From a virus: a DNA stretch of 26,227 nt. The stretch's first letter is position 1, and each line of letters begins with the position of its first letter. The notes beneath the pieces are model-generated. The model worked only from the letters and a program-made list of their open reading frames with translations, ran no database searches and was not told where the DNA came from. The stretch is from IMG/VR virus record IMGVR_UViG_3300017719_000165, positions 1-26,227 of that record. One strand, 5' to 3'. The position numbers were made by a program, and so were the translations under genes. Below, in pieces: positions 24,193 to 25,502 of this stretch.

Positions 24193-24227
24193 TTGATAGA
24201 GTTGATAGAGTTGATAGAGTTGATAGG
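24193..24227 (+). repeat. 9-bp tandem repeat TTGATAGAG
   Basis: Three perfect copies of TTGATAGAG (24193-24219) and a partial fourth (TTGATAGG) run directly into the UUCG hairpin. On the minus strand the unit is CTCTATCAA and forms part of the leader of the 28-residue membrane peptide. No coding function is evident. Confidence 0.85.
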
Positions 24228-24244
24228 GGAGCCGAAGCTCCCCT
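24225..24244 (-). terminator. UUCG hairpin after the 138-residue gene (terminator or leader structure)
   Basis: On the minus strand AGGGGAGC, UUCG, GCTCCCCT form a perfect 8-bp stem capped by the very stable cUUCGg tetraloop. It starts 11 bases after the stop of the 138-residue gene. There is no U run after it, so it may serve as mRNA 3'-end protection or pausing rather than intrinsic termination. Confidence 0.6.
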
Positions 24245-24254
24245 TGGAGGTGAC

Positions 24255-24671
24255 TTACGCCACCATGTTTCTGAGCTTGCTGAAGTTGGCTGGCTTGGCA
24301 GCTTTGTTAGGTGCAGGGCGCTTGTTAGGTGTCCAGACCTCACCACCTGTCAGTGCAGCGAAGACTTCGCAGTCTGCATCGTGACGAGTTTGAAGCTCTT
24401 CTAGCTCGGGCAGAAGTGTATTGATCCAGCGTTCTGTCCGCTCCATAGCGTAGGTGTTCTTTTCATCTACAGCGATGTCGTACTCAGCAAGTGAATCAGC
24501 AATCTGTTTCTTCTTGAAGTTAAGACTGTTGTTCGATGTGTAGCAAGCATCGCGTCCTAAGCCGATGAGGAATTTATCGTTGATGATTGGGCCGTCAGCT
24601 GATGGCTTATCTGTAGTATGATAGTTGATAACTTCTAGTTTAAGTTGAGCTAATTTAGATACTTTAGTCAT
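24255..24671 (-). CDS. Hypothetical early protein (138 residues)
   Basis: This is the first gene of the minus-strand block. The product is soluble and mainly helical: a Lys-containing start, then NDKFLIGLGRDACYTSNNSL, a long charged helix (IADSLAEYDIAVDEKNTYAM and RTERWINTLLPELEELQTRH), and a Pro/Lys-rich tail with NKRPAPNKAAKPANFSKL. I do not recognise a family. A CAGGAGAAC ribosome site precedes the ATG and a perfect 7-bp hairpin (24691-24709) lies just upstream in the leader. As the first early gene next to the divergent control region it could act on host or phage expression, but this is speculation. Confidence 0.65.
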   Translation of the reverse strand: MTKVSKLAQLKLEVINYHTTDKPSADGPIINDKFLIGLGRDACYTSNNSLNFKKKQIADSLAEYDIAVDEKNTYAMERTERWINTLLPELEELQTRHDADCEVFAALTGGEVWTPNKRPAPNKAAKPANFSKLRNMVA

Positions 24672-24690
24672 TTCTAGTTCTCCTGTTAGT

Positions 24691-24709
24691 CAAGAGGCCA
24701 ACCCTCTTG
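24691..24709 (-). promoter_or_regulatory. Leader hairpin of the first early gene
   Basis: CAAGAGG (24691-24697) and CCTCTTG (24703-24709) pair perfectly over 7 bp around a 5-base loop. It sits about 8 bases upstream of the CAGGAG ribosome site of the 138-residue gene, close enough to influence translation or to mark a processed 5' end. Confidence 0.55.
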
Positions 24710-24755
24710 ATGCAGACCCAGAGACATGCCCACAAATCCCAGCTTGCTGGGGCTT

Positions 24756-24858
24756 GACGTTCGCAACTGCTTTCCTCACCAGACACAGGCTGGACTAAGC
24801 ACGGAGCAGCCACACACACATAGCTAACAGCTACAAATGGAAAGTAGTTGCGAATGTT
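24756..24858 (+). ncRNA. Candidate structured RNA or DNA element with a 20-bp closing stem
   Basis: Positions 24756-24775 pair without interruption with 24839-24858 when read as plus-strand RNA: 17 Watson-Crick and 3 G-U pairs. Inside the 63-base loop are two further stems: GGCTG (24788-24792) with CAGCC (24807-24811), and TAGCT (24821-24825) with AGCTA (24829-24833). Together they make a three-way junction. The G-U positions would be C-A mismatches in a minus-strand RNA, so the plus strand is favoured. A TTTT run (24857-24860) sits at the 3' end. It could be a small RNA, a leader structure of the late transcript, or, as DNA, a packaging or origin site near the small terminase gene. Confidence 0.5.
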
Positions 24859-24921
24859 TTGTGGAGCTTGTCACGCAGGGCAAGGCAAGAGGTTGGGTGA
24901 ATTGACAAGGAGAACGACGCA

Positions 24922-24966
24922 ATGCCTATCTCAATTAGCGATACTTACACTCGATGTGGGTTATAG
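24922..24966 (+). CDS. 14-codon mini-ORF with strong ribosome site (possible leader peptide)
   Basis: ATG at 24922 to TAG at 24964-24966 encodes MPISISDTYTRCGL. It is preceded by ACAAGGAGAACGAC, the same AGGAGAAC initiation motif as many minus-strand genes in this window. The longer open frame here (24848-25099) is not protein-like. It may be a leader peptide, a relic of a gene, or chance. Confidence 0.25.
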   Translation: MPISISDTYTRCGL

Positions 24967-25121
24967 TATGTTTAGCATGTCAATAGCTTTTAGAGGTACT
25001 ATGATACCTATTTACGTTAGTTACGCTACGTCACATATTGACATAGCTCAACGAAATATTGTTGTGTGGGGGGAGAGAGGGAGAGGGGGGCAAGCATGAG
25101 GATAAAGGATAGAAAGTACGG

Positions 25122-25502
25122 ATGACTAATGTTCCGAATACAAGAAAGCTGACTACGAAACAGACAGCGTTAGTAGACACCATTGTAGCAAACGGGTGTA
25201 CGATAGCTAAGGCAGCAGAGCTAGCTGGTTATAGTAGCGGTGAGTCTGGAAGAGTAACTGCAACCAAGACGATGAAGCTACCACATGTGCAACAGTATCT
25301 GATGCAAAGGATGAACGAGGAATTCGGGCTAAGTGCTACCCTAGCTGCTGGGACGGTGAGAAGGCTGGCTATGGGTGCTAAGTCTGAGTACGTTCAGCTA
25401 GAGGCTAGCAAGGATTTACTGGACCGAGCTGGGTACAAGCCGATAGACCGGTCACAGGTACAGGTTGCTGGTGACATTAAGGTGTCAATAGATCTTGGCT
25501 AG
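25122..25502 (+). CDS. Small terminase subunit-like protein
   Basis: A 126-residue protein with an N-terminal helix-turn-helix (LTTKQTALVDTIVANGCTIA, then KAAELAGYSSGES) and a following helical region where MKLPHVQQYL, then TLAAGTVRRLAMGAKSEYVQ and EASKDLLDRAGYKP match the small-terminase pattern ('kL--p-V--yl', 'a---l--la--A-s---q--A--dlL-raG--p'). It would recognise the packaging site and recruit the large subunit and nuclease. It opens the plus-strand morphogenesis block, with the large terminase expected just beyond the window. A structured, repeat-rich intergenic region upstream is a plausible binding site. Ribosome site AAAGGA is about 12 bases away, a bit distant. Confidence 0.75.
   Translation: MTNVPNTRKLTTKQTALVDTIVANGCTIAKAAELAGYSSGESGRVTATKTMKLPHVQQYLMQRMNEEFGLSATLAAGTVRRLAMGAKSEYVQLEASKDLLDRAGYKPIDRSQVQVAGDIKVSIDLG

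Follow-up and report, generated by a model that had tools for sequence, protein, structure and literature searches.

A conserved, probably plus-strand structured RNA upstream of the small terminase gene of marine phages, with arms that mirror a divergent early gene

The window, by which we mean the whole 26,227-base virus record analysed here, belongs to a podovirus-like marine phage. An early gene on the minus strand and the small terminase subunit gene (terS) on the plus strand diverge from a common region, which is where the preliminary description had located a three-way-junction RNA candidate. The features of this region are as follows.

24255 to 24671, minus strand: divergent early gene of 138 amino acids, mirrored by the hairpin arms; an open reading frame with homologues in alignment A7 and a predicted two-helix coiled coil
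24676 to 24920, plus strand: whole predicted hairpin RNA as folded in the window, supported by fold energy against shuffles; the true RNA ends may differ
24676 to 24736, plus strand: outer helix, 5' arm, comprising P1 with its extension and antisense to the early gene's ribosome site and leader; pairs with 24859 to 24920
24711 to 24875, plus strand: conserved core with the three-way junction, from the covariance-model match and the covariation in alignment A8
24737 to 24752, plus strand: P2 hairpin (TCCCAG..CTGGGG), with a pair changed on both sides in relatives and covariation in the family
24753 to 24755, plus strand: CUU linker after P2
24756 to 24775, plus strand: 5' strand of P3, whose 20 pairs are kept in nine close relatives
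24776 to 24838, plus strand: insert at the apex of P3, containing two small stems; peculiar to the subfamily of the window and without sequence conservation
24839 to 24858, plus strand: 3' strand of P3, with family-wide covariation and an almost invariant G-U pair
24859 to 24920, plus strand: 3' arm of the outer helix, repeating the Shine-Dalgarno sequence of the early gene; pairs with the 5' arm
24922 to 24957, plus strand: continuation of the mirror copy, with ATG and degenerate first codons (of 24671 to 24631, minus strand), from the inverted repeat
25122 to 25502, plus strand: terS (phrog_2538, E = 5e-15; Pfam Terminase_2), downstream on the strand of the RNA

Only two open reading frames, of 51 and 83 amino acids with GTG or TTG starts, overlap 24756-24858 and neither is credible as a gene, in agreement with the original statement that no gene covers the feature. 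No intrinsic terminator was found near the hairpin, and no tRNA or tmRNA.

P3 joins 24756-24775 to 24839-24858 through 20 unbroken pairs, 17 Watson-Crick and 3 G-U, exactly as first reported. On the plus strand, the segment 24756-24858 has a minimum free energy of -42.6 kcal/mol (z = -7.06) that was equalled by 0 of 200 dinucleotide shuffles, which bears out the assertion that such a stem is unlikely to arise by chance. The minus strand reaches -33.1 kcal/mol (z = -1.94), a difference that agrees with the view that the G-U positions favour the plus strand. The wider fold from 24676 to 24920 (245 nt) has -102.2 kcal/mol on the plus strand (z = -6.43; again 0 of 200 shuffles) and -91.7 kcal/mol on the minus strand (z = -3.29). 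Given that this wider fold is one continuous hairpin, the 20-pair stem is its inner helix, and the feature initially described as about 103 nt long is really the inner part of a larger element. At the base of the hairpin, the Shine-Dalgarno region of the early gene stands on one side and the copy of it on the other, and a strand-neutral comparison of the entire 26-kb window ranks 24631-24957, which enters the early gene, first among its inverted repeats. Fold energy ranks the hairpin region high but not unique genome-wide in the window, and the case therefore depends on comparison, in which pairing and covariation singled the hairpin out.

Eighty related loci were gathered via TerS, and most of them contain a very stable fold 420-560 nt upstream of terS. 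The pattern CTTGNAGTTCGCA...TGCGAACT, searched independently of terS, occurs in 48 viral contigs; the 44 that are testable all have terS downstream in the same orientation, at a distance of 211-719 nt, and the remaining four contigs end too early to show it. A covariance model built from the core recovered it at full length in 59 of 92 sources, many of them outside the training set, with only weak, mostly partial overlapping matches on the opposite strand; of a further 68 loci, collected afterwards with an unrelated pattern, 30 contain it as well. The window, itself among the training sequences, matches the model at 24711-24875 with 68.4 bits (E = 5e-18). A strand-neutral search found an inverted repeat that outscores all shuffles in 46 of the 67 non-redundant loci. 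The left flank beyond the early gene differs between close relatives.

No DNA relatives were found among deposited phages, and the only TerS-protein relatives among them are one streptococcal phage and Pelagibacter phage EXVC031P Hodr, the closest cultured relative (TerS 48.7%, capsid 52%). Hodr, a cultured carrier of the palindrome that infects Pelagibacter HTCC1062, has an even longer hairpin at the equivalent place. The covariance model matched neither the apex of this hairpin nor three more distant phages (Baldr, CKB-S2 and SI2), in which no comparable hairpin was found either. Bacterial genomes gave 10 pattern matches, none next to TerS and about as many as chance predicts for such a pattern, so that no prophage carrier was found. 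As to the deposited records, the locus-tag prefixes of Hodr and Baldr in GenBank OQ414635 and OQ414636 (our loci L128 and L129) are apparently swapped, with EXVC032PBaldr tags in the Hodr record and EXVC031PHodr tags in that of Baldr.

The conserved fold is a three-way junction composed of the outer helix P1, the short hairpin P2, the CUU linker, and P3, which returns directly into P1. The junction had been attributed to two stems enclosed by P3 (24788-24811 and 24821-24833), an attribution that has to be abandoned, as these stems vary among the close relatives of the window and are missing elsewhere. P3 itself keeps all 20 of its pairs in nine close relatives, and its innermost pair has changed on both sides from C-G to U-A in three close relatives. 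Similarly, a P2 pair has changed on both sides from A-U to G-C in three relatives, and P2 is conserved and covaries across the family. The G-U pair at the base of P3, which would be an A-C mismatch on the opposite strand, is kept in 55 of 56 sequences. In alignment A5, compensatory double changes are present in 9 of 29 pairs and few pairs are broken. The covariation score of A8 is 0.440, compared with 0.112 for shuffled and at most 0.106 for slid controls, and A9, a model-fitted alignment that leans towards structure by construction, agrees with it. The covariance search over relatives that had been proposed thus yielded compensatory changes beyond both kinds of control, as expected of a structured noncoding RNA.

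Beyond P1, the helix is an inverted, non-coding and degenerate copy of the divergent early gene, a relationship that was missed at first reading. Full copies of about 340-450 nt, ending 23-39 nt past the stop codon, were delimited by strict alignment in six independent lineages, L006, L068, L078, L090, L102 and L109; L124, a close relative of L090, is grouped with it among the full mirror copies, and the copy in L113 ends 24 nt short of the stop. The strict alignment scores of the mirror copies range from 90 to 349, against shuffle maxima of 21-29. The locus L089 forms a 1,090-nt fold in which about 400 pairs are nested, at -667 kcal/mol for the plus strand versus -505 for the minus strand, and giant folds of this kind occur in about a dozen more loci. 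In many lineages, including the window, the arm takes in the ribosome site and start codon and runs about 40-55 nt into the coding sequence, and the ribosome site and start zone are the usual target of antisense RNAs. By position, the 5' arm is a cis-antisense, overlapping the ribosome site and the start of the minus-strand gene. Within the gene, the inverted repeat of the window (24631-24661 with 24927-24957; 77% over 31 nt) includes the first codons, and this part is barely above shuffle level when scored alone. Descent of the arms from a protein-coding gene through inverted duplication is evident in relatives and partial in the window. The arms of L030, L076, L120 and L126 end before reaching the gene.

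Most lineages show no long open frame in the mirror copy, in which small deletions are numerous. Mismatches between the arms show no excess at third codon positions, and the arms are about 80% identical, with no near-perfect copies. The mirror has stayed paired, not coding, over deep divergence. Loose alignments suggested a palindrome reaching far beyond the gene, but its ends were near shuffle level and the strict alignment replaced them. Chimeric assembly was rejected as a source of the palindrome on the strength of this limited arm identity, the many independent contigs and its presence in a cultured phage genome. Within the group of L089 and L090, a short tract differs in L090 both in the gene and in the mirror arm (A6 columns 285-316 and 837-862) with pairing retained, one U-A pair having become G-C; compensatory evolution could account for it, or else transfer from one arm to the other.

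Mismatches in strand-neutral alignments of the arms are distributed unequally, with 130 G-U against 18 A-C (p = 4e-22). A lean to G-U over A-C is seen in 31 of 34 elements and the reverse in none, and separately fetched loci replicate the bias (G-U 158 versus A-C 22; 14 loci versus 2); p-values for these counts overstate independence because of kinship among the elements. Among close relatives, the transitions that preserve plus-strand pairs (144 of 1789) are about twice as frequent as those that break them (56 of 1438; p = 1e-6). Fourfold-degenerate sites on the same strand have only 51-62% G+T, far from the six- to eightfold bias of the arms, so that a general mutation bias is rejected as its cause. 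The natural reading of the excess is selection for plus-strand RNA folding. Ten relatives in the Hodr clade retain the palindrome, with about 300 nested pairs (both sides altered in 22) and no strand bias (G-U 22, A-C 32). Either the strand-specific role is therefore limited to the clade of the window, or in Hodr the palindrome serves an additional role that is strand-neutral.

No convincing plus-strand promoter was found for the hairpin, and this, together with the differing left flanks, means that the RNA could arise by read-through transcription. The sequence ATGTCA-17-TATGAT at 24977-25005, between the hairpin and terS, matches 9 of 12 positions and is not above regional chance; in Hodr, TTGACA-17-TATACT is promoter-like as read from sequence.

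From the comparative sequence evidence, we contend that the element is very probably a conserved terminase-strand RNA upstream of terS, with a covarying head, antisense and mirror arms, and plus-strand pairing under selection. The part of the preliminary description that is supported is thus the structured plus-strand RNA, which may be a free small RNA or a segment of a longer transcript and for which the abundant compensatory changes, the few broken pairs, the strong strand bias and the invariant place before terS all speak; its size, the make-up of its junction and a primary role in packaging or as an origin are not supported as first given. Functions of double-stranded DNA predict no strand bias and the bias is strong here, though the strand-neutral Hodr clade leaves room for a DNA role, and a late leader is less likely because promoter-like sequence sits between the hairpin and terS. 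Noncoding RNAs are seldom recognised in marine phages, and the present structure can be traced by covariation among uncultivated phages, in which its position between early and late modules is fixed.

The function of such an RNA can be proposed with less assurance. That it is made by terminase-strand transcription and governs the early gene through antisense pairing is a tentative reading, and for the whole statement, the conserved RNA plus this control, our confidence lies somewhat short of even. Transcription of the terminase strand would yield a structured RNA whose 5' arm would match the early mRNA base for base across the ribosome site, because it is encoded opposite the early gene and is by construction its perfect antisense. 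The mirror arm would hold the antisense within the RNA, in a duplex that G-U pairs, bulges and mismatches make weaker; the antisense might be swapped out of that duplex onto the mRNA, or the duplex might keep it away from the mRNA. Cutting of either duplex by RNase III would make the shut-off irreversible, and the conserved head may serve as a recognition or nucleation site. Such a self-locked antisense, a mirror-copy duplex of up to about 500 bp with a three-way-junction cap and plus-strand pairing kept across the marine phage group, is conceivable and similarly provisional. If shown, a gene-mirroring, self-locked antisense would be a new kind of RNA, and control of the early gene by it a form of phage gene control without description in the papers searched. 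The failure to find a convincing plus-strand promoter, the left flanks that differ between close relatives, the arms that stop short in four loci and the strand neutrality of Hodr argue against antisense control. The weak-duplex layout fits a locked antisense on the early gene, or else an insulator against silencing by read-through antisense, and since the mirror arm should weaken antisense action, insulation fits as well as silencing.

The main alternative to control of the early gene is a double-stranded RNA effector or decoy, for which cabRNA (CBASS-activating bacteriophage RNA) is the nearest precedent by place (PMC10686824). The helix of the hairpin, a long imperfect double-stranded RNA under the conserved head, would itself be the active part and occupy a host protein that binds double-stranded RNA, such as RNase III or an RNA-sensing defence, e.g. 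a CBASS cyclase, and the gene-derived sequence would be a mere source of extra helix. We consider this unlikely, yet it accords with measurable selection on self-pairing and on the head and not on a particular arm sequence, with a head that is kept in lineages whose arms end before the gene, and with the sensing of structured RNAs of the phage terminase region by a bacterial cyclase (PMC10686824). What it leaves unexplained is that long arms end at the 3' end of the gene in independent lineages and that the arms so frequently cover the ribosome site, and no host target is known; if true, it would point to host RNA sensing. Processing or insulation, to which we give a similarly low probability, would have the read-through antisense folded in cis by the mirror arm and cut by RNase III, with no free regulator, the outcome being that the early mRNA is protected or the 5' end of the late messages is set. 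Selection on self-pairing in the plus strand only would follow from it and a dedicated promoter would be unneeded, consistent with the differing left flanks, but the sequence-conserved head would be left unexplained and the promoter-like sequence before terS means that the late messages may exclude the hairpin.

The palindrome might instead act as DNA, namely as a cruciform or a single-strand hairpin with a part in replication, recombination or packaging, whose arms are kept alike by recombination. Genes for ERF, YqaJ and a Holliday-junction resolvase are present in the phage, the change tract of L090 is common to both arms, and the strand-neutral Hodr clade has kept its long nested pairing with many double changes; the strong plus-strand bias in the clade of the window and the nearly invariant G-U pair nevertheless speak against this reading, and the degree of arm divergence misfits a cruciform or frequent re-copying, which makes a DNA element improbable. 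Far less credible still is a functionless, decaying pseudogene, that is, an old inverted duplication drifting apart, with its G-U excess produced by strand-biased mutation. A mirror copy mostly devoid of a long reading frame and full of small deletions would suit it, but the composition of the fourfold sites falls far short of the bias, the head covaries, and the inverted repeat stands above every shuffle in most of the non-redundant loci.

The hairpin matched no known RNA family. The window and 10 relatives gave no Rfam 15 match at the gathering score, and a lax threshold returned matches at chance level only; no description of a comparable element was found in the open-access literature searched, subscription papers lying outside the search. 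Similar in size to phi29 pRNA, a phage RNA with a three-way junction that functions in packaging, the hairpin is linked to packaging by place, whereas the link of pRNA is one of function. phi29 pRNA belongs to phages whose genomes are protein-primed and which lack terS; unlike it, the hairpin has no Rfam match and the phage of the window has a TerS gene, so that neither family nor phage type agrees. The lambda oop RNA and RNA I of ColE1 are cis-antisense RNAs of a phage and a plasmid which, like the hairpin, are complementary to a neighbouring message over its start; here, unlike in those cases, the antisense is paired in cis with a mirror copy of the gene, and selection maintains that pairing. 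Adenovirus VA RNA, a viral imperfect double-stranded RNA with a central three-way junction, is likewise made by a virus, but it is unrelated, and the hairpin differs from it in having gene-derived arms and no known bacterial target.

The cabRNA of staphylococcal phages is a structured RNA of the terminase region sensed by a bacterial cyclase; it originates within the terS/terL coding sequence, and the cabRNAs of different phages are without sequence homology (PMC10686824). Both are structured phage RNAs of the terminase region, hundreds of nucleotides long with double-stranded parts, but the hairpin is intergenic, lies upstream of terS (at least 264 nt in the window, 24858 to 25122) and not in terS/terL coding sequence, and has a conserved covarying head and gene-mirroring arms. 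The hairpin RNAs (hpRNAs) of insects and plants arise by inverted duplication of a target gene (PMC10317233). The present element is similarly self-complementary, with arms derived from and matching the gene that it faces; unlike hpRNAs, which act with Dicer and Argonaute, it belongs to a bacterial virus, lies beside its source gene and has a conserved three-way-junction head. To our knowledge, bacteria are without Dicer-type RNA interference.

The early proteins form a single family in most lineages. This family is undescribed, with a motif ARDACYTSxNS, a length of about 140 amino acids, a helical hairpin and 31 homologues in A7. The early protein of the window has no Pfam or PHROG match, and a sequence search of the PDB gave chance-level matches only. 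Its AlphaFold2 model is a helical hairpin, predicted as a two-helix coiled coil (mean pLDDT 86), for which no PDB fold was significant (best E = 0.11; T4 UvsY, E = 0.16) and which matched two uncharacterised phage proteins in a viral library.

Other sequence elements were noted on either side of the hairpin. An invariant 23-nt polypurine tract, GGGGGGAGAGAGGGAGAGGGGGG, lies upstream of terS at 25068-25090 on the plus strand. It occurs exactly once in 76 of 151 fetched loci, is present in more than 120 viral contigs among the matches listed, and lies 14-225 nt upstream on the same strand in each of 61 newly fetched loci that have a TerS match; candidate functions of the tract are those of a packaging site, a promoter or an element of the transcript. 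An operator-like imperfect palindrome, GTTACG-CTA-CGTCAC (25020-25034), which is located between the hairpin and terS, may be a control site for divergent early and late transcription, and relatives have similar GTKACGNNACGTCAC sequences with TTGACA-like boxes alongside. Directly downstream of the early gene, at 24193-24244, a tandem TTGATAGAG repeat adjoins a GC hairpin (GGGGAGCCGAAGCTCCCC), and a similar hairpin follows the early gene in L006, L089 and L102, at the outer end of the mirrored region.
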